A stretch of DNA of 64,000 bases from Haliclystus octoradiatus (Eukaryota > Cnidaria > Staurozoa > Stauromedusae > Haliclystidae). The stretch is taken from contig OU744453.1 in the NCBI GenBank assembly GCA_916610825.1, positions 11,737,826 to 11,801,825 of the forward strand, written 5' to 3'. Under the pieces are notes generated by a model that made no database searches, had not been told where the DNA came from, and saw only the letters and a program-made list of their open reading frames with translations. This document shows, one piece after another, positions 6,001 through 63,027 of the stretch; the stretch's first letter is position 1, and every line of letters starts with the position of its first letter. The translations under genes were made by a program, and so were the position numbers.

Positions 6001-9000
6001 TTTTCCGATGTTAGTCTTTACACTTTTGTTATAGGGTGGGTTGAACCATATTACTTGCCTTCATCTGCTCTTTTTGCCCTTGTAAGGTGTTCGTGGTGTG
6101 TAGGTTAGGTTACTTTTGTGTCCGCTTGACTTTAGGGCTGTCTCGTATTGATCCTTTGATTTACTGAATATTTCTGCATTATTTGAGAGGTCTGACAGTC
6201 TTTTGTTGATGGCTGTTGGGATTTGTTTTATGATGCTTGGTGGATGGTTTGAATTGGCGTTTATGTACAAGGGTTTGTCGTCAGGCTTTCTATACGGTTG
6301 GTAGGTTTCATTAGATAAGTTAAGTCAATCCTCTCAACTGCCAAGACATACAGCAACAAAACAAAAACATGCGATCTCTGCCTCACAGAGAAATACCACA
6401 TCACATACTCCGACAAACGGTTACTCAATAAAAAAACAGAAATTATATCAAAATGTAGACACCAAAATAAATTTTACTTGCCAAATTTTAAAACGTAGCC
6501 AAAAATTATAACCGGAACCACTAACAATAAATATCCGTGATTCGTAAAATGTAAACAATAGCGTAACTAAATAATAGCACTCCGATTGTATATATCCTGA
6601 AGGTATAGTGTATTTTTTCATTGAATAGATTGCCTGATGATCGCCTTCGCGTGAAACTCTGAGTAGCAAACATGATTGTCTGATGTTTGACTACATATTT
6701 TATATATTATATTATATATAATTATAAAGTAATTGTGTGGGTAAAACATCAATTTGAGTGCTCAATGTTAAAAGCAGAGGAGCAACATAAATAGTAGATA
6801 AAAGATCACGGGTTCACTCTGTTACTCCGTTACAAAATGTGGACACTAACATTGCAAAGAAAGTTTTAGCGATGATTGACAAACACTTTCCGAATGCCCG
6901 TATACTCCACAAGATTTTTAATAGAAAGAAATGTTAAGGTATCTTACAGCTGCATGGCTAATGTACAAACTATAATTAGAAGCCATAACAATAAAGCCCT
7001 AAGTGACAATAGCAGCACTAAACCTAAAAAGACTTGCAACTGCCACAACAACAAAGACAACTGCCCATTGGACAACAAATGCCTATCCTCAAGTCTTATT
7101 TACAAGGCCAATGTCACAACGGCACAGGACAGCATAGGCAAACTACATCGGTTTGACTGAAGGCACCTTCAAGCAGCACGCAGCCTAACATGAGATGTCC
7201 TTTAAAACAAAGAAATATGCAAACAACACAGAATTGTTCAAACACATTTGGAAGCTTAAAGAGAAACACACAGTATCACAACTAAAAAATGTAATCTATG
7301 TCTAACGGAGAAATTCCACAAAATTTATTATAAACATGACAATTTATTAAATAAAAGAACAGAACTCATTTCCAAGTGCCGACACCAAAACAAACATTAT
7401 TTAAGAAACTATAAGAATAACAAGTAGATATTTAACAATAGCATAGATAATACAATAGAATGTAATAATAAATTTAAACAATAGAAACGCTTCTTTAAAG
7501 TGTATATACATGACTTAAAGTGTATATCCCGGATATTGCTTTGCTTCTTTTGATAGAGAAAAATGATCTTCTTGTGTTTCTTGTGAAAAATGATTTTTTT
7601 CACTCAAGTGCTCACACGATTAACACCTCTTTGCGACTTCGTCTAAGCATAGTCGGCATAGTTGATGCGTATTAAAAATAGTCACACACCTTCAATAACC
7701 AGCAGCGATAACCTGCTTAGACGAAGTCGTAAAGAGTTGCTAATCGTGTGAGCACTTGAGTGAGAAAAATCCAAAACTAATAACTTTTGACTTTAGAGGC
7801 TTATATCTCTTTACCTGGATCTTGAATATTGATCAAATATAGCTCTAAATCTTGAGCTGAACGTTGAAAATTTCATTCCGAAAGCAGATTGTCATTTGGT
7901 TTAGCGGTTTTTTATTTAGAGACAAATAAGTAAAAAGTTTAGTGTTTTTTCCGGTGTAAACCCTCTTGTGGAAAATAAGTGGGTTCCTGTTCGAGGAAAA
8001 AGAGTGAGACACAAAATCGTAACTTTGATTGCATTTTTGAGGGGGAAATACTTGCGCAAAGTAAAAATACAAGAAGAACATTTACTGATAGAAAATGTTT
8101 CTCTATCTAAAGAAGCAATCTCCCAGTATCTGGGATATACACTTTAAGTCATGTATATACTTGAGCACACCATGATGTTTTTTAATTCAATAAATCGTCT
8201 GAAGAGAGTCTTTACGCAAAACTCAGAGTAACGGAGTAAACTCGTGATCTTTGATCTACTAAATTTATATATATTATATAATTATATAATTTTAACACTA
8301 TATGGCTATTCTTTATAAAGAAAGAATAACAAAATTCTATAAATACAATAACAATAGGGCGCTGTGACAAAGGGAAACAATTAAGATAAAATTTGCAACT
8401 TAATTGAATTGCGTAGAATGTTAAAAGTCAGTTTTAGCTTCCTTATAGTGGATTTCCACACACTAACTATCCCCAACAGCAGAGAGGTGGCAAAATGAGT
8501 ATTTATATTTGCCAACATCGTGAAAATTTGGTAGGCCTAAATTTCAACGATGAAGTGAATTCAAATTTATTTTGTTAGTCTATGACGGCAAACTGTAAAA
8601 GAGGAACATATTATAATGTTCTTTTAGCCAACAAATACAATTGATTTCAACACCCTGATCAAAAGTAATAGCCTACTTGGCAGCAAAAATCTCTGTTGAT
8701 TTAAATTGCGACTGAGTAAACATTTCTATATAGTCGTATCGCAAACAATAACACCAACCTTATTTGATCAAGTTTTTGTGAGGTAGATGCACAGTCTTTA
8801 TATATTACACCTCAGTATGTCCCCTAGACCTTCCAAACGGAGGAATACTCTTAGCCTTTACAACTGCGGTGATAATGCTTCATTAGGTTAAACTATTAAG
8901 CTTTATTCCCCGGGGTGGATATACTATAGTTTAATTGGCTCATAAACTTATTTGTTATCATTATCCTAGGCTGAAGCAGCCTGCTATTTCTACAAATAAA

Positions 9001-10653: not shown

Positions 10654-13600
10654 TTATTTTTCTTCCATCTTAATCTTTATCTGACTATGAACTTGAATTG
10701 GTTTTAAAATTATTGGTGTTGTGTAAGTTACTTTTTTGCAATAATCACTCAAGGCAAAAGCTTGAAAAGGAGATTTTATAAGTTCATGAGTTAATTCATG
10801 TTCTGTAGTTTCATCACAATAATGATCTAATGACATTGACAGTGAATCTTCTCTTCTTGCTTTGTGAGATAGATGCGGTTGCCAGGGTTTCTGATCTCTG
10901 GTCACACCATCATTCAAAATCTATGCAAAGAGAGAAATTAAATCATGGGTGGAGTTGAGTTGCTATTTTTGTCTTCATTACATTAGATAATCTGCCTAGA
11001 GCTATATTTATAACTTGCGACCTGGATGAGTAGTGGTCAGGTCAATCAATCAATCAATCCTTACCCTTTAAATATTTCAAATATTATCAACGTAATTTTA
11101 ATTGAAATAGTCAGTCAGCCAGTCAGCCAGTCAGCCAGCCAGTCAGCCAGTCAGTCAGTCAGTCAGTCAGTCAGTCAGTCAGTCAGTCAGTCAGTCAGTC
11201 AGTCAGTCAGTCAGTCAGTCAGTCAGTCAGTCAGTCAGTCAGTCAGTCAGTCAGTCAGTCAGTCAGTCAGTCAGTCAGTCAGTCAGTCAGTCAGTCAGTC
11301 AGTCAGTCAGTCAGTCAGTCAGTCAGTCAGTCAGTCAGTCAGTCAGTCAGTCAGTCAGTCAGTCAGTCAGTCAGTCAGTCAGTCAGTCAGTCAGTCATTC
11401 AGTCAATCAATCATTCAACATGAATTTGGAATATGTAGTGTAGATCTCTAAATGTGAAAGCCTTTTGATGATTTCAAGTAAAAATTTCAAAATATTAGTG
11501 GTTTTTATATTACGTAATACATTAATACATGTTTAAAATAAAATTAAAAATAATAATGTACATAGGTACTTAGGAATACTTTATGGATATTTGGGGCATA
11601 CGTTTCAATTGGGAAACAATATGTAGGGTATCTACTTCTCATTAACTTTCAAGTGATTATTTTTAAAATCAAATTGGCATTCTCCTACCTCCCGGCATTC
11701 TTAACCCCTCCTCCAATGCATAATTAACTGCAGACTATCTGATTGATGTGAAATATATATTTGGTATTTTAAGAACAGAGTTAATTAATAACGATAATAG
11801 TCATCCAAACAGAATAATTATTTATAAAGCTACTCACTTCATCGATGGCTTTAATGTATTTTTCTGTTTCAACAAATGATTGAATGGATTTACCAATCGA
11901 ACCATCAATAATGTCTGCATGAGACAAAACAAAAACTACCAATTAAACAATTGATATCATAATAAGGTTGTTGATATCACCGTCTTGGCTCCTAGTGTAG
12001 CAAATGATATTAATGGGGGTTACACTGTGCATTAAATATAAATGTTACCTCTCAGTAAAGTCAGTCTAAGTGCTGCTTGCCCATTGTTCTGATTCAACAA
12101 TTGATTAGCCTCTGTTAAAGAATAACCTCTTAGCGAGATGTCATTGATAGCTAGTAAACGGTCACCAACAAACACACCACCACACCTAAATATCACAAAA
12201 CAAAATACAATTACTGCATATAATTTAGTACCCTTATACATTTGTTTATCTCCCCTGCGAAACAAGTTCATGAAAGTTCATAAAAGTTCATGAACGTTCA
12301 TGAACTTTTATGAACGTTCATGAACTTTGATGAACAGTTCATGAACTTTGATGAACAGTTCATGAAGTGTAAGGAATAGTTCATAAAAATATGGTTCACT
12401 AACTCTTACAGTTCATGAACGTTCATGAACTTTGGTGAACTCAAAGTCACAATTCATGAACTACACTCAAAGTTTATGAACTAGTTGTCCAAGTTCATAA
12501 AAGTTCATGAACGTTCATGAACTAGTTTTCCAAATTCATCAAAGTTCATGAAAGTTCATGAACGTTCTTGAACTTTTATTCAAGTTCATGAATGTTCATG
12601 AACTAATCATAGCAGTTTGTAAACAAATAGTTCATGGACCCACAGAGTTCATGAAGGTTCATGAACTTTGATGAACTAAAAGTCATCATTCAACAACCAC
12701 ATTCCGCGTTTATTAACCAGTATTCAAAGTCCATGAACTATATCCCAAGTTCATGAACGTTCATAAACTTCAATCAATGTTCATTCTTTGCAGTCATTTC
12801 TCGTAAACCCTACCAGTAGTAGAAGTTCATGGACATTAATTCTGAATTAATGAAACAGAAATCCTAGCTTATGAAACTTCATGAAAAAAACATTCTGATC
12901 AAAATACATAATAAAGCTCAATTAGATACAGTAAGTGTGAAACTGTATTAACACACAATTGTAAGGGCTATTTTAGCAGGAAAACATAAATCAATGCAGG
13001 TCTACTTGGCAGCATTTCTGGTACCATGTCAACAATTTTGGAGCTTATTGCCTAGTAATCAGGGCAGTATATAAGTAATGCCAATAAAATCTAGCAGCAT
13101 ATTATTGATCTCAACTAATGACAAATAGACAATGCCTCAGGGGCAGGGTGTCACAAAATGTTTGCATTACTGGAATCAGAAATTCCAGATAAGATAGGAA
13201 ACTTTCCACTTTTAGGGTTTTCAAAATATTTATACAAAATGAATGTGAAGCCTATGAATAATAATGTTGAAAAGTAAATCTTATAGTTGAAAACCTACTG
13301 ATTTTGTGCTGGCCTTCAATGAACCAGGTTCCCAGGACCCCCTCCTTCTGATAGATTGTTTAGGAGAAGACAGAAGACACACATGTGTCTTCATTTGTCA
13401 AGACAATGTATGTACTTAAGTTAATTAATTACAATGTCTATAAGTTAATTAGTTGTACAATCTACAGCTAACTTATTTCTGAGTTTTATCCATCAGAAAT
13501 GATAATGTTCTTGTTCAAGTTTGTTGTTTCATGTCTGATGCATTAATGTGTTAGTTTGATTGTACTTTTATTAATTATGTTAACATTGTGTTGAATATAT

Positions 13601-27254: not shown

Positions 27255-28600
27255 TTACAGCACTTTATGGTTTACCTTCTGCCCAAATGGTTACCCCTTT
27301 GCATGCGGATCGGTTTGCTGCGGAGTTGCTAAATCATCCTGACCCTCAACTAGTGTCATATGTCCTGAACGGATTGAAATTTGGTTTCCTGTGGGCTTCC
27401 AGGGTACACCCCTTAAATCAGCCAAAAAGAATAAGCCAACAGCATCAGATAATCAGAGTGTCATTGATGAATATTTAGCCAACGAAACAAGATTAGGACG
27501 GGTTGCAGGCCCATTTGACATTTCACCATTACCACACCTTCATATCAGTAGTTTTGGGGGTAATCCCAAAACGAGGGCAGCCCGGTAAATGGCGTCTAAG
27601 TGTGGATCTTTCGTCCCCGCATGGCTACAGCGTGAATGATGGCATCAATTCTTCGGACCTTACTTTGCAGTATGTGCGAGTAGACAATATTATCCAAATG
27701 GTTTGCCATCTAGGTGGAGGTGCCCTCATAGCTAAATTTGACATCGAGGCAGCCTATCGAAATGTAGCAGTCCATTCTGCTGATAGGTATCTTCTTGAAA
27801 TGGAATGGAGAGGAAAGTACTTTGTGGACTTGGCATTGCCTTTTGGTCTTGGTTCAGCACCATTCATTTTTGATTCTGTTGCTTGTGCAGTTGAATGGAT
27901 TCTCGCCAGTAACTACGGCGTGACCACTGATCTAGTCCACTATCTAGATGATTTCATCATGGCAGGCCCACCCAATTCTGATATATGCTTGACCCAATTC
28001 AATTTGTCTCTTCAAGTCTGTTCCCAGTTAGGCCTTCCACTGCATCCTACCAAATGTTTAAGCCCGTCTGCTATTATGATTGTACTTGGAATTGAGCTCA
28101 ATTCGTTGGATCAAACAGCTCGTCTTCCTGATGACAAGTTGAGGGATTTAAAAGTCCTAATTGCTTCTTGGAATACCAAACGACATTGCACGCTGAAGGA
28201 CCTGCAGTCATTGGTTGGTCACTTGCACCATGCAGCCAAGGTGGTATGGCCTGGTCGTACATTCATTCGTCGGATGCTTAATTTACTTGGCGGTTTCAGA
28301 CATCCGGATCACATCATTCGCCTCAACGTAGAGTTCCGAAGGGATCTCGACTGGTGGGATACTTTTCTCAGCCTTTGGAATGGGGACTCTTTCTGGCTAT
28401 ATCCTAGTGTCCCAATTGTGAGTGACATCTCTGTGGCTTCTGATACATCAGGTTCTTTAGGCTATGGGGCATTTTTTAATCAACAATGGTTCAATGGGAT
28501 ATGGTCACCTTCCCAGATTCACCAATCTATTGCATTCAAAGAACTATTTCCAATTGTCTTATCTGCCCATGTTTGGGGTCAACAATGGTCACGTCAACAT
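27255..28600 (+). mobile_element. DIRS/Ngaro-type retrotransposon: reverse transcriptase and start of RNase H (degenerate)
   Basis: Reverse transcriptase spread over two or more frames. Early region LLNHPDPQLVSYVLNGLKFGF; a frame change near 27390; then from about 27510 a long frame with KRGQPGKWRLSVDLSSPHG, FDIEAAYRNV, LPFGLGSAPF, catalytic YLDDF, and an RNase H start SDTSGSLGYGAFFN. This sequence type belongs to YR retrotransposons, supported by the tyrosine recombinase downstream (32026-32937). The RNase H frame is cut at ~28600 by a LINE and resumes at 31791. The 5' terminal repeat was not recognised. Confidence 0.8.
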
Positions 28601-29070
28601 AGATAGATAGATAGATAGATAGATAGAAATATATTTCAATCATTGAAACAAAGCAAATTAGTTTACAGGAAACTTTTAACATAGATATATGTGTAGCTAC
28701 AATGATTGAGGTCACCCCTTAAGCAGTGCAGCTTGTTTATTGGGGGACTCATTATTTACAGTTATCATTTATTCAATTAAATAAGGATAATAATAATAAT
28801 AACTATAACATGATAAGATTAAAATAATTAAAGAAAAATAAAGATTTGAAGAAAGAAGTATACACGTTTGGATTAGGTGAGTTGTTGTTAGACTGGCTGA
28901 AGAAAAAGATTACGTTGTCATAGTTGAGTTTCAGGAATTGTTGATAAGTTGCAAACATAACAATCTGGAATTATACAAATAGTATTGTAACTGTCAATAA
29001 AGTGTGTTTTTAAACGATGTCTGAAGTTTGCAGAGGAACCATTAATGTCTAAGAACTTTTTATTTCTATT

Positions 29071-30900
29071 TCAAAGAGATGGCATTCTATAATTAGGCAG
29101 GTTCTGAGAAAAGCTGGTTGTGACAAAGGGAATGTGGAAAACGTTATGCTTTCTTTTATCCTTTTTGATAAATGTATAATTAGAGTGTATTATTTCAGGG
29201 GTTTTGTTGAGAATTATTTTATGTAATAAAGTAAACGTTTTTATTAAAAAGAGGTCTTCTGATTTTAAAATATTGGTAGATTTTAGGACTGGAGATGTGT
29301 GAGTTATTGGCTTAGCATTTACAATTATTCTAACACATTTTTTTTGAAGTTTACATAATATTTTAAAATTTGGTGCATGTCCCCAAATGGGAATGCAGTA
29401 TTCAATATGGGGTTCAATTATTGCTGAGTAAATTTGTGCTTTGTGTTTGGTTGTTAAAAAGTTTTTCAATTTTATTAATGTGTAGCAAAGTCTGCGGATT
29501 TTTTTACAAACAAATTCGACGTGTTGTTTGAAATTCAAATGATCATCTATTAAAACACCAAGAAATTTGACATATTTTTTGCTACAATTTGTTCCACAAC
29601 GTTCAATAATTCTGTTATTTATTTTTATATTTAGATCTGCTTTCAAAGGATTGTGAAAAATCATATAATTTGTTTTTGACTCATTCAGGCTCAGCTGGTT
29701 GTCATAAAACCACTTTGTGACAACAATGAGTTCCTCATTGACATCGTTCTCAAATGTGTTTAAATCAGAATCAGACATTTGTAGGGTTGTGTCATCAGCA
29801 AAAAGGCTAACATGGAATTTTGTATTATCAGGTAAATCATTGATATATATCAAAAAGAGTAGAGGACCAAGTATACTGCCTTGAGGAACTCCACAAGTTA
29901 TAGTCTGTAGTCCAGAGATAGCATTTTCAAATGAAACAGCTTGTTGCCTTTTGAAAAGATAATTTTTGAAGAATTCAAGTTCATTATTATTAATACCATA
30001 ATGAGCCAGTTTATTCAACAAAATTTCATGGTTGACAGTGTCAAAAGCCTTTTTTAGGTCCAAGAAAATGGCAATATGATGTCTTTTGGAACGATTTGCA
30101 AAAAGATTGTGTAAAAAATTGAGAACAGAATGTGTTGTATCAAAAGACTTCCTGAAGCCGAATTGGAATTTTGTTAAAAAATTTAATTCAAAATACTTAT
30201 AGAGCTGATTGTATACAATACGTTCAAAAATTTTAGAAAAACTTGATAATAAAGAAATTGGTCTATAATTTGATAGAATATGATTATCACCTGCTTTAAA
30301 AATCGGTAACACCTTTGCTATTTTATAACTGTCAGGGATGAAACCTGTTTTAAGAGATAAGTTGATAAGATAAGTCAAAGGTGCGATTATTTCTGGGTAA
30401 ACATATTTCAAACATTTATTAGAAACCAAATCAAATGAAGAACTACTTTTATTTTTTAACTTTTTGACAACATTTGTCACTGTGACTGGGGAAACAAATT
30501 TGAAGTTAAAAGAAACATTTGGATTTTGAGGTAGATACTGTTTGAAATTATGGTTGATTGAAAAATTTTGGGCAAGTTGAGGTCCAACATTGGTGAAAAA
30601 GTGGTTAAAATTCTCAGCAATGTCTTGTACATTTTTGATTTCAATGCCTTCAACATTGAAAAGATCGGGGTATCTATTTTTCTTCTTATTCCTACCAAGG
30701 AGATTATTTGTTGCTTGCCATAGTAATTTAATGTTGTTTTTGTAATTTTTGTAAAAATGATGCCAGTATAATACCTTACGTTTACGTACAGCTTTGAAGT
30801 AGACTTTTGAGTATTGATCATAATATTTTTTTGTTTCTATATTTTTTGAAGCAATCTCATTTTTCGTTTTCTGGAAATTAAAAGGCCATTTGTCATCCAT
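29071..30900 (-). CDS. LINE reverse transcriptase ORF
   Basis: Uninterrupted ORF of 609 codons. Recognisable RT blocks: KVLPIFKAGDNHILSNYRPI, FLDLKKAFDTVNHEILL, GVPQGSILGPLLFLIYIND, and catalytic FADDTTL, then the CR1/L2/Jockey-type thumb (KFLGVLIDDHLNFKQHV). The initiator is uncertain, because the ORF normally continues from the endonuclease. The length and lack of stops suggest a fairly young copy. Confidence 0.85.
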   Translation of the reverse strand: MDDKWPFNFQKTKNEIASKNIETKKYYDQYSKVYFKAVRKRKVLYWHHFYKNYKNNIKLLWQATNNLLGRNKKKNRYPDLFNVEGIEIKNVQDIAENFNHFFTNVGPQLAQNFSINHNFKQYLPQNPNVSFNFKFVSPVTVTNVVKKLKNKSSSSFDLVSNKCLKYVYPEIIAPLTYLINLSLKTGFIPDSYKIAKVLPIFKAGDNHILSNYRPISLLSSFSKIFERIVYNQLYKYFELNFLTKFQFGFRKSFDTTHSVLNFLHNLFANRSKRHHIAIFLDLKKAFDTVNHEILLNKLAHYGINNNELEFFKNYLFKRQQAVSFENAISGLQTITCGVPQGSILGPLLFLIYINDLPDNTKFHVSLFADDTTLQMSDSDLNTFENDVNEELIVVTKWFYDNQLSLNESKTNYMIFHNPLKADLNIKINNRIIERCGTNCSKKYVKFLGVLIDDHLNFKQHVEFVCKKIRRLCYTLIKLKNFLTTKHKAQIYSAIIEPHIEYCIPIWGHAPNFKILCKLQKKCVRIIVNAKPITHTSPVLKSTNILKSEDLFLIKTFTLLHKIILNKTPEIIHSNYTFIKKDKRKHNVFHIPFVTTSFSQNLPNYRMPSL

Positions 30901-30920
30901 GGGTTTAGTTTTTGTTTGTT

Positions 30921-31784
30921 TTAGTTTATTTTATTTTCAATGATTGGACAAGTTTCATTGAGACAGTCTTCAAATTGATTATGAAATTGAGAAAAAGCTC
31001 CTACAGGATCCTCTGGAAGAAACCAATTACATTGAGCAAGACGATTTTGTAGAAGCTCTAGGTTTGAATCACACATGTTGCGATAAGTAGTGGTTGTTGG
31101 TGTACAGGTATGTTCCTTCACTTGAAAATAGACAAACGGGCATAAATGATCAGAAATCTCAGTTGTATTTATTTCTGTCACTAAGTTGTTTTTAAAATTT
31201 GTAAATATGTTATCAAGAAGTGTACATGACCTTGTTGTGATCCGTGTAGGTTTCGCGGTGAGTGGAAAAAATTGAAATTGCATGAAACAACATAAAAGAT
31301 CATCTAGCTTGCTGGACTCATGCAGCATGTTAACATTGAAATCTCCTCCAATGAAAACTGTTTGATTTTTACAGGTGTTCAATACTTGAGTTAAAATAGA
31401 AATAGAATTTGAGAAATCGGAATGTGGGGGGATGTAAATGGATATAAATACATAGGATTTATTGTCAGCAACTATAATTTCGATATCTTTGTTTATTTGG
31501 GTAAGATTTTCATTTATTGAACAATTAAAGGAATTGTGAATGACTAAGCCAACACCCCCACCTCTGGTGCTTCGTTCTTTTGAAAAATAAGCGTGATTTG
31601 GTAAAGTAAGATCACCACCTTGCCAAATTTCTTGCATAGCAAGCACCTTCAAATTTGAGCATGTTATGAGATCAGAGACACTGCTATGGTTCCTCAACAA
31701 ACTTCTCACATTTTGTGTTGCAAAGGACATGGGCAAGTCTGGTACATCACTTGTGGTGATATATCCTAGCCATGTCCTAGACAT
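30921..31784 (-). CDS. LINE endonuclease (APE-type) ORF
   Basis: Exonuclease/endonuclease/phosphatase fold of LINEs: TQNVRSLLRN, MQEIW, RGGGVGLVIHN, FISIYIPP, GGDFNVN, LLDNIFTN and ISDH in the right order. It ends at a stop 20 bases before the RT frame, in a run of A and T, consistent with a one-base indel. ORF starts at the truncated 5' edge. Confidence 0.8.
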   Translation of the reverse strand: MSRTWLGYITTSDVPDLPMSFATQNVRSLLRNHSSVSDLITCSNLKVLAMQEIWQGGDLTLPNHAYFSKERSTRGGGVGLVIHNSFNCSINENLTQINKDIEIIVADNKSYVFISIYIPPHSDFSNSISILTQVLNTCKNQTVFIGGDFNVNMLHESSKLDDLLCCFMQFQFFPLTAKPTRITTRSCTLLDNIFTNFKNNLVTEINTTEISDHLCPFVYFQVKEHTCTPTTTTYRNMCDSNLELLQNRLAQCNWFLPEDPVGAFSQFHNQFEDCLNETCPIIENKIN

Positions 31785-31790
31785 GTAATA

Positions 31791-32937
31791 TTCAAATGTG
31801 ATAATGAAGCAGTAGTTTTCATTTTGAACAAGCGTTCTTCCAAGATTCCAGCTGTAATACAGCTCATACGTTCCATGTTAATGGAAGCTGCTTGCCACAA
31901 TTTTTCTTTCTCATGTACCAGGAGATACTAACTGCATTGCTGATGCTTTATCTCGTTGCACCACTACCGGCAGGTCCTCTGGCAACATTGATGTCAATCA
32001 TCTAGATGAGCAGCTTCATTTCTATTTGAAAAACAGCTTGGCACCAACCACTCAGCGCACATATTCATCAGCTCAGAAAACTTTTCTCTCATTTTGCCAA
32101 AGAACTCACACGGCGGTACCTTTACCTGCAACAGAGCAGCTGTTATGTCAATTCATCGCATTTCTGGCACAAACCCGCAAGCCACACTCAATAAAAGTGT
32201 ATCTGTCTGCTGTCCGCTCTTTGCATTTCTCATGGATTTAAAGATCCTTTACTTGGTTGTCCCTTGATGCAGGAAATGGTGCGGGGAATCAAACGAACTT
32301 GCAGCTCACCTCCAAAAGAAAGACTGCCAATCACCGACGACCTCATGCTGGTAATATTCAACTCATTGGATATCAATCGCTTTGATGATTTAATGTTATG
32401 GGCTGCCTGCACACTTGCATATTTTGGCTTTCTTCCGTGTATCCGAATTCACGGTGCCTAATACCAATGCGTTTGACGCTCAAATTCATCTACAGCATTC
32501 TGATTTGGCGTTTGATGATTCACCTCAAGCCCACTTGTCTTCGTCCTCATATCAAAGCCTCTAAAACTGATCCGTTTTACCAGGGACGCTACATCTACAT
32601 TGGTCGTGGGACCTCACCTCTATGCAATTTGGAGTCTATGATACGATATCTTACGTTGCGGGGTCAACATGCAGGACCCTTGTTTTGCTTTTCCTCTGGC
32701 CAGCCGCTAACTAGAACTCATTTGGCAAATTCGTTGCAAAAAATATTTTCCAATGCTCAGATCCCTGGTAGTTTCAATACACACAGCTTCCGAATTGGCG
32801 CAGCTACTGTTGCCGCTCGCAACGGAGTTCCTGATCACCTCATTAAGGCTCTTGGCCGTTGGAACAGCAATGCCTACACTTTGTATACTCGCACTTCTCC
32901 AGGTTTCTTGGCTCAGGTTTCAAAGTTGCATTCTTAG
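31791..32937 (+). mobile_element. YR retrotransposon, continued: end of RNase H and tyrosine recombinase (degenerate)
   Basis: After the LINE, the RNase H C-terminus appears (NEAVVFILNKRSSKIP; then, after a frame change near 31915, GDTNCIADALSR). The tyrosine recombinase follows from ~32026. The SAM-like N-terminal domain contains TQRTYSSAQKTFLSFCQ, TEQLLCQFIAFLA and SIKVYLSAVRSLH. A stop at 32241 and a frame change near 32437 break it. The catalytic region HSFRIGAATVAARNG, LGRWNSNAYTLYTR supplies the H-x-x-R box and the tyrosine. It is not functional as it stands. Confidence 0.8.
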
Positions 32938-40430: not shown

Positions 40431-43400
40431 GATAAAGTTCCTCAGACTTTGTTGAACGCCATCTCTGTCTATGGGAAGAAAGTGAAGTTGAATTGCCAGC
40501 AGGTATGGAAATCAGAAACACTCTTTCCCAATATTTACGCCATTTCAATTGTTCTCTTTCATTTCAACGTTTTATTTCAGGAACATACATGACATTCACA
40601 GATTCGATCACCTGGATCATTCTCCAAAGAGAGGCACATCTAGGCGATCAATCGTTAGAGCGTTTACCTTTGTTTCTTCCCATGGTACATAGTACAACAA
40701 TGGCAGCTGGTCATGCACCACTTCCTGTACCAAAGGTTAGATACATTACCATTCATTTTGTATCATGCAAAGAACCATCTGCATTGCTCACAAACAAGCC
40801 TCATAAATCACTGCTTCCACATATTGCAATAGCAATTCATATGTCCATTGAAATTGCGCTGAACATGTCCAAATTCACATTACAGGCTGAATGTCAACAA
40901 CCACCTCAACAAAACAGCGATGACGATCAACCTCCATCGCAAAGACCACAAGGCAGCATTGGTTTCACACTTACCCATCTTGCAGCTCACAGCTTCACAG
41001 AGCGAAATAGGCGTTGTACTGCTTGGGTACAAGAAAACAACAACCAACTGAAATTTCGTATCAGGACCCTAATCGACACTGCAAAATTATGAATAAAAAA
41101 ACAAAAACAATTCAGCACAAATTTAAAAAAAAAATCCTAACTGTCGATGAATTGGCAAGATCTACCTTCATGATTCATATAGCTGTGACTGCACCACTAC
41201 TGCTACTTCAACCCTTGTCACAACTTTTCTGAGTGATGTTCTTAGATCATCCATCACCATAACAGTAGCAAATGATGACACTTACTGGTATGACATTCCA
41301 GACATACAAAACGACGCAAACGAATTCATCACTTTCGACAGGTAACTTAATTCACATAATAACAACTTGTCAAGAATTACCCGCAATTACATGTTCTACA
41401 ACTTTCACAAATTGCTGAATCGCTCACATTTGAACAAATAACGTAACATCTTTCACAATCCTTTTCACATAACATTTTCAATTCCAAAAGCAATTTCCCA
41501 TTGCATAAAATATATCAAAATTTCATTTCCTTGCTAGGTATGACCTCCATTGGGCTTCAAACGTCACCCTTATATCTAATGGATCTGGGTATGACAGCAG
41601 CATATTGTTCTGATGGCCCGATCTGCCACTGCAACAGGTTAATGATCTTCGGATTTCATTAACAAATAGCATTGGTTTCTACATATTACAGAAAGATGAA
41701 ATCAACGCTTTTTAACAACTCTCAAACTGTTGTGGTGGTCAATGCAAAGTCAAATGCATTTGAGATGAGACTACATTGCACATGAGCCATCGGTTGATTT
41801 GAACCTAGATAATCTAGGTCCTTCGATTGCTTTGGGTTCAGTTGCGATGTCAAACAAAATCCTCCAACCAAGTGAGGTATTCTGTCTACAGGAAGTTCTC
41901 TTTATGACCCTTTAGGAATGGCAAGTCCTTTCACCTTCAAGGCGAAGTGCCTGTTGCAGGATCTGTGGCGAAATAACTACAGTTGGGACACTGAATTAGA
42001 AGGATCTCGTCTAATGACTTGGGAAAAATGACTTCAGGATTTAATTAAGCTAGAAAAGGTAGAATTGCCTAGAAATATTCTACCTTTGCCAATTGATACT
42101 TACTCAAGGATTGAATTGCATGCATTTTCAGACGCGTTATTTTACAATTGGGGTACGGGTCAGTTATTTATTTGAGACTTGTCAGTGACTCTATCAATTG
42201 CTCTTTTGTGATAGGAAAAAGTTGATTGGCACCTCTAAAGGAGACCAGCATTCCGAGATTAGAATTGCAGGCAGCTTTGACATCAGTTAGACTATGTACA
42301 AAGATATGTGAAGATTTAAGGTTGACTAAGTCAAATTCTACATTTTTGGGCCGATTCAACAACGGTACTTAGTTATATCGAAAATGAGAGTAAATTTTAA
42401 GGTTTATGTTGCCAATAGGGTAGGTGAGATCCGTGAAGCAACAACCGTTAGTCAGTTGAGGTATGTGGATTTTGCCAGAAATTCTGCTGATGATATCTCC
42501 TGTGGTTTGTCCCCTAAAGAACTTTGTTCAAAGGTTAGATGGTTTGCAGGCCCTGATTTCCTACGTAAGGATGAATCAGAATGGCCAAAGGATCCTCGTA
42601 AAACAAACTCTTTGGTAAATGATCCTGAGGTCAAAGAGGATACAAATGTTTGTTATTCGACTGGGCAAACCAATGAAATATGTTTTGAAGATAAGTTGTT
42701 TGATCGATATTCTGCCTGGGATAAAATGCAAAGATCCGTTTTCTTAGGTATAAGGAATATCTCAGATACAAAGTAAGATTCAAGGATGCTAGCATAAAAC
42801 CTGTATTTCCTAGCAAAGGTTATCTCAAGGTATCAGAACTCAGAACAGCAGAAGCAGTAATAATCAAACTTGTTCAATGTAGATAATTTAGCAAAGAAAT
42901 TTTCAAATTAAAAAACGGAAAGTCCCTGCCATCAAATAGCCCCTTCTTGAAACTTAACCCATTTTTAGATGATGGAATTCTCAGGGTTGGTGGCAGATCA
43001 AATCAAATACAAGTTGCATTTTCTTTCAAACACCCTGTGATTCTTCCAAAATCTCACCCTGACTCAAATTTATTGACAAAACATTGTCATTTTTCGATGG
43101 ATCATGTTGGTCAACGATTGACACTGTCTTTGCTCCGTACAAAATACTGGATAATAAATGCTAGGAGTTCTGTACGGAAGTTGGTTAGAAATTGTATGAT
43201 ATGTATGTGACATGAGAGAAAGGTTAAATCGAGAACGTTAGCTTTCAAACTTCACTTTTTCCATTGCGGTGTAGATTATTTTGGGCCTTTCAAAGTTTAA
43301 CGTACACGTGGAACAGAGAAAACGTACGGCTGCATTTTTTCTTGCTTCAATACATTGGGGCTGTGCATTTAGAGTTAGCAAGTAGTTTAGAAGCAGATTC

Positions 43401-43470
43401 TTTTATCAATGCTCTTCGAAGGTTTGCGGCAAGACGAGGTACGCCTGGTGTTATGCACAGTGATAATGGC

Positions 43471-45231
43471 GGATCTGAAGCAATTTCAATACCATCTTTT
43501 GTCTTTCAAGAAATCTCTAAAACTGATGTGTCATCGATCATCATGTCATTGAATGGAAAGAAGTCTCCTGGAAATGATGGCATCCCAAACTGGTATATTC
43601 AATTTAGTATTTCTTTCCTTGTAGATCCTCTTACTTTACTGCTAAACGAGTGCATAAAAAAGAACATTTTCCCCAGTCATTGGAAGGACGGGCTTGTATC
43701 TGCCATACATAAACAAGGTGATGAATTATGCAAGAAAAATTATCGTCCTATAACTTTACTGGTAGTGCTGTCCAAGATCTTCGAAAAGCTGCTGAATAAA
43801 CAAATCTGTATCCACATGATGTCGAACAACTTATGGTCAAAAACACTGTCCGGCTACATAAAACATCATTCGTGCGAGACAGCACTGTTCAAAGCGACAG
43901 AGGATTGGCGTAGATCAGCTGACAGTGGAGAATGCGTTGCTGTTGTTGCTATGGATCTTAGCAAGGCATTCGACTCCGTTCATCATGAGATTCTTCTGAG
44001 AAAATTACAAACTTATGGTTTTTCAATGTCTGCAACTCAGTTGATGAAAGACTACTTAACTAACAGAAGACAGCGAGTAAAGATAGATGGAAAATTTTCA
44101 TCTTGGAGCACTCTTTCATCAGGTGTTCCTCAAGGAAGCATTCTTGGCCCTACTTTCTTCAACATCTTTGTTAATGATCTTATTCAAAGTCTGACGTTTT
44201 CAAACATTATGCAATATGCCGATGACACAACCTTGTATTACCAACATCATGACGTCGACCTTGTCAAATTACATCTTGAAAAAGACTTGGAGTCTGCTTG
44301 TACCTGGTTTGACATGAACATCCTAACACTGAATGATAACAAGACACACTGTATGGCAATAGGCAATTGTAATAAGCTACCAAACTTAACAATGAGAAGC
44401 AAGCATTTGCCATTCGAAAAAGAAATGAGACTCCTTGGCATCACAATCGACAAAGAATTAACATTCAAGTCTTTCGTCGCTCAAATATGTAAAACTGTCT
44501 TTACAAAATCATCAACTCTATCAAAACTAAAGAACTTTATTCCATTGAAAACTAGAACAATGATTTATAAATCGCTTATCATGCCGCACTTTGACTACTG
44601 TGGTACTCTCCTTGCCACACTAAATAAAGGACTGCAGAAAAGAATGGACAAATGCCTGAAATCATCAACACGACAAGTCATTGGGAAAAAGATGTGACAG
44701 ACGCAAACCTTCAATCATTACGCCAACGAAATATTACCTCGTTAACGAAATTACGCCAAAATGTTATCAATGGCACAGCTCCCATTACGATTCAGCAGCT
44801 GCATAAAAAGACCGAAGGCAATACAAGATCAGCGTCAAGAGGGGAGATGAAAGTACCCAATTTTAAGAAAAAGATTGGAAAATTGTCAGCATGTCGTCTT
44901 ACAGTATATTTACACAACCATCTAGTGAAGAATTTCCCACTTGTTGATAATTTAAGTGAAATTGACTTGTTAAGTGTCACTGAAAGGGTTTTATTTGAGT
45001 AAAGACATATTGACCATGAAAGTATATATATATATATAAATTGTATATACTGTATAAACTATTTTAATTTATTTTGATACTTTTTATTACTTAATTAATC
45101 AATTGCTATTTATATTTACCATATCTCGTTATTCTATAAAACATGCCCTAGAAGGCAACTATACTATCTCTGATAGTGTAGTTGAATGCGAGAATTTTAT
45201 TTAAATAAAGTTTATCATCATCATCATCATC
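43471..45231 (+). mobile_element. CR1/L2-like LINE, 5'-truncated, inserted in the BEL/Pao integrase
   Basis: RT ORF in frame from ~43480 to 44697: KKSPGNDGIPNWYIQ, NYRPITLLVVLSKIFEKL, AMDLSKAFDSVHHEILL, SSGVPQGSILGPTFFNIFVN, and catalytic YADDTTL. After a stop at 44697 the last ~100 codons are in another frame to 45002. The 3' end finishes in (ATC)n just before a repeat of ATGGC (43466-43470 and 45232-45236), the probable target duplication. The endonuclease domain is lost by truncation. Confidence 0.85.
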
Positions 45232-45896
45232 ATGGCACTAATTTTAAAGGTGCTGACAGAGAGATGGAGTCAATGGATCAGAATAAAATTTCAAAATTTT
45301 TATTGTACAAAGCATGTGAATGGGATTTTAATACCCCAACTGCTAGCCGTCACAGTGGTATTTTGGAAAGGATGATTAGATCAGTCAGACAAATCACGAG
45401 AAAGGTTATAGGTAGCAGTCTATTTACTGACAAGACACTGCTTACAGTACTAGTCGAAATAGAATCACTGTTAAATAGCAGGCCTTTAACCCATTTGAAT
45501 GATGACCCAATGGGAATAGAAAAATTGACTCCTAACCATCTGTTAATGCAAGGTCAAGGACCTCCATCACCTATTACTACTTCGGATAATTTGAAATCCA
45601 ATTGTTGCAAAAGATGGCAGCATGTTCAATTGCTTGTGAATCAATTTTGGAAAAGATTTGTTAAAGAGTACCTCCCTCTTTTGCAAGAGAGGAACAAATG
45701 GAATAAAAAATTAAACAATTTTGCAGTAAATGGTTTAGTATTGGTTGTAGATGAGTCAGCACCTAGATGTCAGTGGCCTCTAGGTAGAATTGTTAAAACC
45801 TATCCTGGTCGTGATGGCTATGTGAGAACGGTCAAGGTAAGACATCAGTCTTCATTGTTAACCAAACCGATTACAAAATTGTGTAGTTTGGAATAA
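45232..45896 (+). mobile_element. BEL/Pao integrase, C-terminal part
   Basis: Open frame after the LINE: TNFKGADREM, WDFNTPTASRHSGILERMIR, EIESLLNSRPLTHL, LTPNHLLMQG, and a basic C-terminal domain (LVLVVDESAPRCQWPLGRIV), the typical BEL/Pao integrase tail. It ends at 45896. Confidence 0.8.
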
Positions 45897-56339: not shown

Positions 56340-59300
56340 CCTCATCTTTGCCTCTTATTAAATAATTAAAATGCTCTTTTTTACCCAACATTGAGCAATT
56401 TCACATTATATGTGTATCTGAGTAACTGAGTTTACACTCACTATAATTCGTTTTTTTAATTTATCATTACATATTAATATCGATATATGCATGATATATG
56501 TTTATTCTTTATCTTTTCAATGACTGATTTCAAAGAATAGATGCAATTAACTTCCCGGTGACCCTCAATAAACAAGCTTTTGCTTCAGGGGTGACCCCAA
56601 TCATTTGTGTAAATGTGAAATACTGTAAAACGCCTAAAACGTGTAAAGCTTCACACTTATACAGTGCTAAACAAGTTGCTTATGCATTCATTCTCCATTA
56701 AAATGATTGAAATATACTGCATATATTTATATTTGATTATTTTGCTGCAGTGTAAATGACCCTATAGAGTACCGGGTATAGAGCTCTAAATTATCCTTCC
56801 ATTTTAAACTGGCTTCAGATAACTACACACTATGATACCTTGATTCCTTGTATCCCCTGTGGTACGGATGAAATATTGAGCGAGGTAGAATTGTGAGAGT
56901 TTGCATGGATGATTGAAAATAGAAATCAGTTTTATGTAGGGATACTGAGCAAGGTGAGACATTAAATAACCGAGATCGACTGTATTCTAAAGTCACTTTT
57001 TTGTTAAGATTTCATAAGAGGACATACAAGAATGTTTACACAAAACGGTTTACAATAATACTGCTTAAAGTTATAAGTGCAACTTGGACGCAAAAGACGT
57101 ACATTGGCCGTCAACTCGTCTACATACATTCTATACTGCATTGATATTCTTATTTCGTAATCATCAATTGCATTTGAATTTAAAATATCTTCAATCGGAA
57201 AATACTCTCAGGGCTCATGGAAATCAGGGAACGACCCTGGCTTTATCTTCAGTTGGGGAATGGAAAGGTAGCGAGAAGCAGAATGTGTCAAACCAAATTT
57301 AGTTCAAAAAGATAGATAAAATCCGCTTTTTGGATATAAAAGTTGGCTAACTTGGGAAACAAACAATATCGTTTTCTTGAGAAGTTCTTGCTTGCCTCTT
57401 GGATTAGAATGCCGAGATTTGGGGATTGAAGGTTACATTAATTCCAGTACATTCCAGCTACTCTTATAAAAATTATTTGGTTTGAAATTTAGAATTTCAT
57501 AATGAAGATTTGAAACTGTTACGCTATCACTTCTCCAAGCCCAAAATAAGTAATTTTCAGATTTTTAAGTATTGAATGAAAAGAACAATGTACTATTATG
57601 GTTATAAACTATTATAAAAATCATTCCATATCATTCCACACAGATGTATTCTAATTGACAAAACAGATACATATTGCTACAGTACATAAATGATAACTGA
57701 TATGAATCTATGATAGAAGATCTGTTGTGTTTGTGTAAGTGATAGACAGACGTATAACTCATTGTGGTCGCTGTGTGTTCGTGATATAATCATAACCATG
57801 TGATATAACTATAGCCCGTTTTGAAAGGTTTAAAGCATCTTCTAATATCATAGAACAATATAGCCTTTAGAGCCTAGCTGAATATTTAATTAATTTAAAC
57901 GTGTTCGAAATAATTATTCAAGATAAGATACTTTGAGACTGGTTGACTGGTGTTTAAATTAATTTGCAGACCCCAAGTAAAAACAGGCACTGACATTATA
58001 CGGAGGCCAGTCTCGTGTGAGGACAGGTATGACTTCAAATTATCGCTCCATCACAGCTTTAATTACTGCTTTTCAACAAAAACGATACAATTTAGTATTA
58101 TATTGACATCCACATGACGGTTTAGCCATGTTGCTCCATTATTTCATGTTCTTCTCAGGGCATTTCTTTTGTTGGTTTTTTTCAAATCTTCAATTATTTC
58201 AAATCTAATGTGCGCATGCGCGCACTAGATTTGATCAAAGCCCATCAAATGATCAGTTCTTGAATCAACTGAATAGAAGTGGATTATTGGTTATTATAGC
58301 TAAGCCCAACAAAAACAAATCACATTAACAAGATACGATGCAAAGCAAAGACCAACTTTAAAATTAACAAAACGAGTAGTTCAAACATCATGAGCACAGC
58401 ACAGCGCGTGCGTGAGGTCATTGGAGCTGTTGACAATGAGGCAGCTAACATCGATTGGCAGCACCTTGCTTAATCAGAGACCGATTGTATAACAATGCGT
58501 AAACGGGATCAGCTGATTAAAGGTAGCCAGTCGAAACAGTTGATCCGATTCATACTCACTGTTTTAATCCGCCGCTAAATTGTTCATCAATTGTTGATTT
58601 AGATAAAAAGCACTAAGAAATTTCGATATCGTTTTCTGATATGCTAAGGATACTCCATGGGGTTGCTGCTATCGTTGCTATGAACAAAATGTAACTAACG
58701 ACATATGCGGTGACTTGCGGCTATTCGCGCTATATGTCGTACACCAAAATACCGCCACAGTGTTCAACGCAAAAACGCGCAATTAAGTATCAATGTATGA
58801 ATCATTAACCCACGCGGTGAATCATTCTATTATGACAGAGATCAAGTGAAACTCTGTTGGGATTGAAGGCTTTATTTCTTGTGACATAATTAATTAATAA
58901 TAGAGAGCTTCATAGACTATCTTAACTAATCTAATCCGTTTTCATTTGACGATGTGCCTCTTACTGCTTTGAGCTGGACGCTGTTCATGCAAAAGCAGCC
59001 GTGGTAGTTTCAAAAGACATGTCGAATCTCAGTTAGGTTTGATCTCAAATAGCCATCGGATCAGAGAGTGGCGCACGACAGTTCATCCCTATAATTTCAT
59101 CTAACACCGCTAGACTAATATTTTCACCTGCCTCCGTTTGCTGTTGGCTCTTGTCTCTGTTGTATGCATGCATTCCTTTACAGATAGAACGCGCGTCATC
59201 CATCAGCCCGTCTTATGCATAATTATGACAAGTCACTGCACGTGGCTATCAATACTATTAATCGCAGCGATTGGTTCATTCAATCGCTATTAGTTGAATT

Positions 59301-61551
59301 GCTTTTAACTATAACTAGTTAGACACTCAAGGCACCTGACATTAAGGCATTACTGCTCTGCCACGCCATAGATTATGTAAATGAGCCTTGAGCTGCAAAA
59401 ACGAGGAGAGTACTTTTATAACGCTACATGACAGTCTATTGTTTATGTAAAATGACAATTAACGTCTTATTAAACTTTCACTTTTTGTGCCACGCGCCAT
59501 CGTCTTTATTGTAAGGTGTAATGTTTCGACTGTTGGTTAAAGTCTGGTGAGTTTTGCGATACGAATTCATTTGATAATAGAAATGAAGAGGTGATGAAAC
59601 AAGGGACCTACAGTTATCGCCGTTGTTATCGATGGCGAAGAAAAGCTAGCGGTTACTATCCACTGCGAACGACGAACTGAGAAGTATTAACCCCATAGCA
59701 AGACCATTGTCCATGGTTCGCTACGGCGCGTGCCCTAATACTGTCCGCACGTGCAGCTTATTGCTTAGCCAGTCGAGTATGTAGAAAGACAAAACGATAA
59801 AAAATATGTTTTAAATATGATTAAACAGCTTACTTGATATATTCGTCACACTGATAACGCGTCTTTTCTATGAAAGTAATTTTACATAAAGAGAAGTAAA
59901 CTATTTATATGTATCAGACACGCCTCAAAGTATCTAGTACTAGTATCTAGTCTTACTATCAACAACAACAGCAAAAACGATGATTCAATTGAGAAAAATA
60001 TATTCGCTACTTTCCTAGTTAAATAGGCGTAGATTTGGTAATATCTAAATACGATAAAACGATAAGGCTTTGATTTGCGGTGTTCAAAATGGCCACAATA
60101 ACATCGAGCGAAAAAGAATTGAAGGGCTAACGAAAGAAAATGAACATTCTGTGTCGCTTTAAGATGAGCAACAGATCTATCAGGCGTAGAGAGGATCTAC
60201 ATGACTAAAATTACATCAACCAAAATTGGATTGTTGAATAATTGATAGTTCATAAAACTGCTGCATTTTTTGGATTAAAAATTGATTAAAAGACGTTAGC
60301 TGAGCGAGATAGAAGCGAGCTATAGGGGGTGTGCGGTTACGCTTCTGAATTGAAACGTGAAATCTGCTAACCGCATATCTAACGGACATCTTGCCTGTGT
60401 TTGCAATTAGCCCAATCCTTTCATCTTGTTTAGTAATTGCTCCTTTGAACGGACAGCTTTTATCAGTGTCAATGTGTGTCATTTGAGGCAGTGAAAACTC
60501 ACACAGGGGATATTTTCCAAAAGGGCATTAGATATCAGTCAAAGGCGTCTCCGTATTTGACGATTAGCCATGGCTCTACAGTGTTGGTATTTTAGCATAA
60601 TACCATCGATGAATAATTAAAGAGGTGTCTCTGAATTGATTGTTTGCACGGCTGGTCGCCAGAGACGATACAAAACAACAAACGACAATGATAGTTCAAG
60701 TCGAATTTAATTGCAATGAATTCATACAATGTTTATAAATCCCGTATCAATCGATCATTGTCAGTTGTAGTTCGAAGTAGGTTAAGATAGGAAAACAGTT
60801 GAACACCAGATAATTCTTTTAGTCTGTTTGTATCTGACGATGGCAGGGTGATGGCATCTGCTCTAGGCTGGGGCGTGTGTGCGCGCGTGCCAGCATTGTT
60901 CAAATCCCTCTGCCAATCACAGTTTAGTGACGCGTTGCGATTCTGCTTCATCAGACCCTAGCTAAAACATACACAAGTTCACGTGCCAGCTAAAGGCTTA
61001 ATCGTATAATCTCAAAAAATAAAAACCAACAAGTATAACTATCTCAGCGTAGCAATATTTGAATGTTGAAATTTGTAAGCGTGCAAAGAAACAAGCACTG
61101 GATCCTTTCGAGTATTAGACCCTGGAAGTTCTGAAATAAAATGTTTAATTGGACCCCCGAACTATGAATGTAGTTGAATTGAGCAATGAGGACATTTAGC
61201 GTGCCAACAGTCATCTTTTAGTAATCTACTCTGTCCATTGTCAAGTCGTGCTGAGCCTAAATCCGAATTATAGAGCAGGCCATCTCAGTGTCCTTTTGTC
61301 GACAATTCAGCTGTCATTTACTTATAACTTAGCAAATGGAAGAATGGGCCGCACGCGCCGCACGCCGCGCATACATAAACAAGAACACGCGTCGATTTGA
61401 GAGCCATAACCACGAATGAGGGTGACCTAGAAAGACACACCAATCATTACAACAGATTATTACTGCTCAGCAACGATTGTGGCAAAAGTGCAACACATAT
61501 CATCTCAATTGCATCTTTAAATTGCATTCGGGAAAATAATTAAGTGAAATA
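56340..61551. other. Unannotated region upstream of the FEZF-like gene
   Basis: About 5 kb with few recognisable repeats, unlike the rest of the window. Mixed composition. A short palindrome TGCGCATGCGCGCA lies at ~58212. No gene was recognised; a 72-codon minus-strand ORF at 60733-60951 was not accepted. Being repeat-poor next to a developmental regulator, it may hold cis-regulatory sequence (inference). Confidence 0.5.
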
Positions 61552-63027
61552 ATGCCTCGCTCGTTTCTAGTAAAAAGCCATCGAGTGAATTCCAGTAGCA
61601 TAAGTAGCAAAGGAGAAACAAAGATCAGTACAACACCAAGACACAACGGTAAGATAATACGATGATGATGATAATGTTACTTAACGTAGCTGTAGCTGTG
61701 ATTAGTTTATAATACTGCAACTGATATTAATTTATACACCGTCAGACAATCAAATTGATAACACTTCACCATAATAGATAACACTTTTCATTCCAAATCT
61801 AATTTCCCGTTGCTTCAATCTTAACAATTGTGTTAACAATAGTGTTTGACAAAAGATTCTCTACTCTTTTTAACTATAGATAAATTCTCAAATGGATACA
61901 AGAGAGAGGAAATGCAAGCCAACAGTATTTTTCACTTCATTGACAAATCAAGAATCCCACCCTTGAAGAAAATTGAACCAAATTATAACAGTAATTTTGA
62001 AGTCATTAATCATCCACTTGAGCACAACAAAGACAATCATCCCGAAAGAATATCACTGAGAGATGTATCAATTGGTCATAATGCAGTATCACGCTTCTCG
62101 TTCACTTTACCAGCGTTCTTCAACAGCGGCTCGTTGATGCCGAGTGATGTATCACAAATACATTACAGCAGACGCACACCGACAGATGAGTACAGACACT
62201 CATCACATAGCATTGAAGATATTATACCATCACCTACATCATCCAATGAATCAAGTCAGTTACCATCTCCTACTGTTAGGTTAAGTATAGATGATGATAT
62301 ACGAGCCTACGGTCGTTGGCCATCAACTACAACTACTGATTTGCAATCTCAGATGATATTTCAAGATGATGATCTAGCCAAAGGACGCAAAAGACGCCCT
62401 TCGTGCCAACAAAGAGTATTTAGCTGTCAAATATGCGGAAAGATATTCAACGCCCATTATAACCTAACTAGACATATGCCTGTTCATACTGGTGCAAGAC
62501 CATTTAAATGCAAGACATGCGGGAAAGGATTTCGTCAGGCAAGTACACTGTGCCGTCACAAGATCATCCATACGAAAGAAAAACCACACAAATGCAAAGA
62601 GTGTGGCAAAGCATTTAATCGTTCATCAACTCTTAATACTCACATCCGAATCCATGCCGGTTACAAGCCGTTCAAATGTGAAGTATGCGGAAAAGGATTC
62701 CATCAGAAGGGAAATTATAAGAACCATCGTCTTACTCATACGGGTGAGAAACCCTTTAAATGTCCAGTATGTGGTAAAGCATTTCATCAAGTCTACAATC
62801 TAACGTTCCATATGCACACACACAATGAAAACAAACCATTCACATGTCAAATTTGTGGCAAGGGATTCTGCAGAAACTTTGACCTGAAAAAACATGTCAG
62901 GAAATTGCACGGGGAGGAACGCCTTGGAGAAGCTATAAAGCCAGCACCAACATCCAACTGTGGCCAGTCAATTAACAGTAACGCCTCGATTACAAATCAT
63001 CACAATACTACGAACAACACAACGTAG
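61552..63027 (+). CDS. FEZF-family zinc-finger transcription factor with N-terminal SNAG-like motif
   Basis: Exon 1 is 61552-61648 and exon 2 is 61880-63027 (1245 nt, 414 codons plus stop). The donor CG|GTAAGA and acceptor ACTATAG fit in phase 1. The N-terminus [12 protein letters not shown] is a SNAG repressor motif (as in Snail/GFI1, where it recruits LSD1/CoREST). Residues 215-376 are six C2H2 fingers with linkers. Their helices ([79 protein letters not shown]) are diagnostic of FEZF1/2/Earmuff. A Ser/Pro-rich middle contains HSIEDII (142-148), resembling the eh1 motif with F changed to H. Vertebrate FEZF proteins begin with eh1, not SNAG. Nuclear DNA-binding repressor, expected in anterior neural patterning by family. 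Confidence 0.9.

Follow-up and report, generated by a model that had tools for sequence, protein, structure and literature searches.

An FEZF gene with a SNAG start in the staurozoan Haliclystus octoradiatus: a probably ancestral N-terminus

We have analysed a 64,000-nt window of the Haliclystus octoradiatus genome (contig OU744453.1, positions 11,737,826 to 11,801,825, forward strand) and found in it a gene which, judged from its sequence, is the canonical FEZF of this staurozoan cnidarian and whose predicted product begins with a SNAG motif. FEZF is a brain-patterning gene. The H. octoradiatus gene very probably encodes a DNA-binding repressor in which the SNAG N-terminus ancestral to the GFI1/Snail/FEZF group has been retained. 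The presence of SNAG in FEZF of non-bilaterians has been known since 2010, and the gene described here is a well-supported new example in the expected state. A literature search on SNAG with Fezf or Fez gave no title on a staurozoan FEZF among the matches listed.

The gene carries six FEZF-type C2H2 zinc fingers (62416–62922, plus strand), all of which pass the Pfam cut-off; Pfam matches are confined to residue 213 onward, and the six models above the cut-off are all zinc-finger models. The fingers are 86% identical (143/167) to those of human FEZF1/FEZF2. The published criterion for FEZF is the presence of six FEZF-type C2H2 fingers, typically >75% identical across groups (PMC2942887). When the genome was searched with the window fingers, the next-best loci reached 57–59% identity (150 of 478 candidates were scored); the comparison gave 97/166 for one FEZF-like locus (L030) and 94/169 for another (L031). 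The high identity to FEZF1/2, with other loci much lower, identifies the gene as the canonical FEZF, and the FEZF-type assignment made in a preliminary description of this DNA is thus upheld. GFI1 and GFI1B likewise combine SNAG with six C-terminal fingers, but GFI1 fingers are only 46–49% identical to those of the window gene: 77/168 for the GFI1 of the same genome (L032) and 82/166 for human GFI1. A GFI1 gene misnamed as FEZF was therefore rejected, with 143/167 to FEZF vs 82/166 to GFI1. The L032 fingers themselves match human GFI1 at 114/167. A tree of eight rows agrees with the assignment to FEZF, at a modest clade support of 71/76 and with one outgroup row on a very long branch. A PDB search with the fingers yielded, at a limit of E 1e-20, 28 sequences, of which none bears the name FEZF.

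Coding exon 1 (61552–61648, plus strand) has 97 bases, that is 32 codons and the first base of the next one (phase 1), and its translation begins MPRSFLVK, with the SNAG sequence at the extreme N-terminus. The ATG at 61552 is the first in-frame ATG and has A at −3; an in-frame TAA (61537–61539) lies 12 bases upstream, and MPRSF is therefore the N-terminus of that frame, as SNAG requires. The earlier claim that a SNAG motif begins the first exon agrees with these observations. A phase-1 GT..AG intron of 231 bases is predicted from the sequence at 61649–61879 (plus strand). Its donor, ACAACG/GTAAGA at 61648/61649, is the top GT of the scanned stretch, with a simple consensus score of 5.5 (runner-up 3.2). 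The acceptor, AACTATAG/AT at 61879/61880, is compatible in frame with the donor; this site (TTTTTAACTATAG/AT) is the one proposed in the preliminary description and was checked by eye and frame, without ranking. Coding exon 2 (61880–63027, plus strand, stop included) encodes a variable linker, the six fingers and a tail. The finger region is unbroken, lying in a single open stretch through 63027 with no introns inside the fingers; FEZF finger regions were described as free of introns in nearly all species except vertebrates and Ciona (Irimia et al. 2010, PMC2942887).

We infer that exons 61552–61648 and 61880–63027 are spliced together. The joined frame has 415 codons with the stop and would give a protein of 414 residues; as had been claimed, the exons join cleanly, through a phase-1 junction across the 231-base intron and with the frame open at sequence level. 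The codon usage of exon 1 in its own frame matches that of exon 2 (5.7 bits vs −8.7 and −3.9 in the other frames), and among 51 open 97-base stretches sampled at 58001–61500 one equals its fit. A chimera of two genes was considered and rejected, as phase, codon usage and exon distance fit a single gene. A fossil SNAG exon, or one used in some other transcript, is also improbable, with FEZF beginning at another exon or at M44 (MQANSIF, ATG 61912, in exon 2). Such an internal ATG exists, and amphioxus offers a precedent: a genomic SNAG is present there and is absent from the Fezf transcripts described (Irimia et al. 2010, PMC2942887). In the window gene, however, a good donor and acceptor lie 231 bases apart with matching phases, the SNAG is intact, the codon usage is coding-like, and the SNAG start is the first in-frame ATG with its A at −3.

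The genome comprises 261,861,806 bases in 33 contigs. A degenerate DNA pattern covering MPRSFLVK and one further base has three sites in these 262 Mb, and all three head zinc-finger genes: an INSM-like gene (L024), a Snail-like gene (L025), both labelled from the look of their proteins, and the window FEZF. The reversed pattern, used as a control, had two matches in the same genome. Within the window the SNAG site, itself without mismatches, is unique even when up to three mismatches are allowed; shuffled windows had on average 0.51 matches at three mismatches. The 32 residues encoded by exon 1 had no match in a PDB sequence search with a limit of E 10.

Elsewhere the window contains pieces of retroelements at 29071–31877 (minus strand) and at 43228–44697, 45186–45896, 27497–28606 and 32389–32937 (plus strand). 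They include an endonuclease with a reverse transcriptase (LINE-like), a reverse transcriptase close to a DUF5641 ORF, presumably BEL/Pao-like, and a reverse transcriptase accompanied by a tyrosine-recombinase-like ORF that narrowly misses the Pfam cut-off, a combination which we take to be DIRS-like. Two related minus-strand ORFs (2352–3332 and 5392–6060) share the pattern YIGLTE.TFK.RY..HA.SFRN and, as we assume, resemble the GIY-YIG end of Penelope-like elements; the ORF at 2352–3332 had no Pfam match at E 0.001. A long Ser-Gln/Ser-Val repeat at 11014–11451 (plus strand) is open in three frames and is a simple tandem repeat, not a gene.

The assembly also includes a mitochondrial contig (C33, 18,316 bases; loci L028 and L029) whose end frames both look, by eye, like DNA polymerase and whose cox1 appears, again by eye, to be oriented opposite to most other genes. 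ARAGORN found only two tRNA genes in it, Met and one with anticodon tca; the latter is named SeC under the bacterial code and is read here as Trp. The cox1 frame has eight internal TGA codons, and long frames stay open when TGA is read as Trp. We take the arrangement (terminal DNA polymerase frames, few tRNA genes, reversed cox1) to be the linear medusozoan mitochondrial layout.

Five genes with a SNAG start were found: FEZF, FEZF-like L030, GFI1 (L032), the Snail-like gene and the INSM-like gene. The SNAG starts of L030 and L032 were found in the regions upstream of FEZF-like or GFI1-like fingers, not in a genome-wide scan with a looser SNAG pattern. L030 (contig C6, 27425500–27434500, minus strand) has its own SNAG exon, MPRSFLLKRG, at 27433031; L032 (contig C6, 17366000–17375000, plus strand) has an upstream MPKSFLVKK exon at 17370911. 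A phase-1 donor is predicted after the SNAG exon in four of the five genes, with top scores, on the simple consensus scale, of 5.5 (FEZF), 4.2 (L030), 6.2 (L032) and 5.7 (Snail-like), although in L030 a competing phase-0 donor scores 3.5, near the 4.2 of the phase-1 site. The predicted introns have 231, 250, 1763 and 354 bases, respectively. Each of the four donors meets a phase-1-compatible acceptor of the exon holding the fingers; the acceptors of L030, L032 and the Snail-like gene are the best AG by pyrimidine content in the scanned stretches. In the INSM-like gene the SNAG start continues unsplit, with no intron after it. L031 (contig C2, 3447500–3456500) has FEZF-like fingers; the looser pattern found no SNAG start within 2.8 kb upstream of them, and the top AG by pyrimidine ranking falls inside the open frame. 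Common descent predicts that paralogous families should share such a first exon and its phase. With four genes, coincidence or exon shuffling may be the source of the shared phase-1 exon.

According to Irimia et al. (2010, PMC2942887), SNAG is present in non-bilaterian Fezf, is probably ancestral and was lost in bilaterians, whose Fezf carry a 'Fezf box'; these authors observed an inverse relation between SNAG and Fezf box. The published non-bilaterian Fezf with SNAG have the same composition as the window gene, six FEZF fingers and a SNAG; the latter adds a staurozoan instance, in which an eh1-like heptad was noted. The same work (PMC2942887) reports SNAG together with FEZF-related fingers, as in the window gene, for NveFezf3, NveFezf12, NveFezf30 and SpuFezli, Fezf-like genes of cnidarians and sea urchin. 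These Fezf-like genes branch basally in that work, whereas the fingers of the window gene are canonical; L030 and L031 look like the basal genes, but SNAG was found only in L030. As SNAG is the published probable original state of Fezf, a SNAG start is what one would expect in a cnidarian FEZF such as this one.

Vertebrate FEZF1 and FEZF2 have an eh1 motif, FSIERIM, near the N-terminus, and to our knowledge their N-terminus has no SNAG. In the window protein the only candidate for a bilaterian-type N-terminal Fezf box or eh1 is HSIEDII (residues 142–148; 62206–62226, plus strand), which starts 71 residues before the fingers and has His in place of Phe at position 1. It is the best eh1-like heptad in the 212 residues that precede the fingers, with 9.79 vs 2.44 bits for the next one, on a matrix built from 20 F-type motifs. 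On this matrix 336 of 20000 shuffles reach its score (58 of 3000 in a repeat run). When the matrix also includes five Pax and Nkx6 motifs, HSIEDII scores 13.61 bits and 37 of 20000 shuffles reach this value; for positions 2–7 alone, the numbers are 59 and 93 of 20000. In both sets HSIEDII is below the lowest known motif (9.79 vs 14.49 and 13.61 vs 14.03 bits). The best score in four other SNAG/FEZF-like proteins of the genome was ≤0.67 bits (L031 being scanned over 97 residues only, and the INSM-like protein left out).

His at eh1 position 1 has precedents in PAX3/7 (HSIDGIL) and NKX6.1 (HGINDIL). According to PMC8327856, which refers to Muhr et al. (2001), PAX7 and NKX6.1 are among the proteins for which the EH1–TLE interaction is essential. 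Among Fez proteins, an eh1 motif was described in human, zebrafish and likely fly (Copley 2005); Xenopus Fezf2 was reported to bind TLE via eh1, and mouse FEZF2 to bind TLE4. Titles retrieved on SNAG, LSD1, Pax7 and eh1 include, among the matches listed, none that settles the matter of His at position 1. Given the His precedents and the EH1–TLE requirement in PAX7 and NKX6.1, HSIEDII may function as a weak eh1. The preliminary description had called it an eh1 with the key F lost: H does stand for F, but loss of the motif is unproven, since HSIEDII stands out against shuffles, though it scores below all known motifs used, and His at position 1 has precedents. Homology of HSIEDII with the bilaterian Fezf box is equally unproven, because the test was post hoc and made on a single protein, and the heptad is far from the N-terminus.

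Two evolutionary scenarios had been offered for the combination of SNAG and HSIEDII. The first was a lineage-specific switch of co-repressor from Groucho to LSD1/CoREST: FEZF would have used Groucho via eh1 at first, and this lineage would have gained SNAG and lost eh1. The presence of SNAG, the H for F and a heptad score below every known eh1 motif used are what a switch would leave. Yet the published polarity is the reverse, SNAG starts had already been published for FEZF of other non-bilaterians (PMC2942887), and the predicted phase of the SNAG exon is common to GFI1, Snail-like and FEZF-like genes. Since the animal keeps the old arrangement and the published polarity is opposite, a switch is unsupported, and we regard it as highly improbable. 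Retention of an ancestral SNAG, the reading we prefer, has points counting against it as well: amphioxus Fezf transcripts without SNAG, frequent SNAG loss (one account puts the SNAG-1 loss count in the Snail superfamily at 11), the lack of a SNAG start within 2.8 kb upstream of the L031 fingers, the clade support of 71/76 and the close phase-0 donor of L030.

The second scenario was an ancestral dual arrangement, of which the ancestral SNAG is favoured over a switch, while the eh1 part is weak, with HSIEDII below all known motifs. In its full form, both SNAG and HSIEDII work, and the cnidarian–bilaterian ancestor had both, of which lineages kept one; this is compatible with an ancestral SNAG, and we consider it a tentative possibility. 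The lead of HSIEDII over the next heptad (9.8 vs 2.4 bits), the low scores of the four other scanned proteins, and the essential EH1–TLE contact of two proteins with His at position 1 speak for it. On the other side are the 336 of 20000 shuffles reaching the score, a score below all 20 known motifs and below the minimum of the extended set, a start at residue 142, whereas the bilaterian Fezf motif is close to the N-terminus, and the inverse SNAG/Fezf box relation (Irimia et al. 2010, PMC2942887). A more specific version, in which SNAG and a Pax3/7-type eh1 both work in this FEZF, so that it would exemplify today an ancestor with two repressor motifs whose SNAG was later dropped by bilaterians, is unlikely, because HSIEDII falls below every known eh1 motif used.

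For the retained SNAG a mode of action can be proposed. A review describes interaction of the SNAG of SNAIL and GFI1 with LSD1; in Nematostella, a truncated Snail SNAG was reported to lower nucleolar levels, with LSD1 cited, in the part of that paper used here, only from other animals. By analogy with SNAIL1 and GFI1, the free N-terminus MPRSFLVK of the window protein would bind LSD1/CoREST, and the targets of FEZF would thereby receive the demethylase. A weaker Groucho/TLE contact may be contributed by HSIEDII.

With the present gene, a staurozoan very likely joins the animals whose FEZF has kept its SNAG. That FEZF, FEZF-like, GFI1 and Snail-like genes have in common a SNAG exon of predicted phase 1 would further support a shared origin of these repressors. 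The window FEZF is also a candidate for a stage of overlap between SNAG and eh1 repression; if both motifs do work, the published inverse relation between SNAG and Fezf box would be softened.
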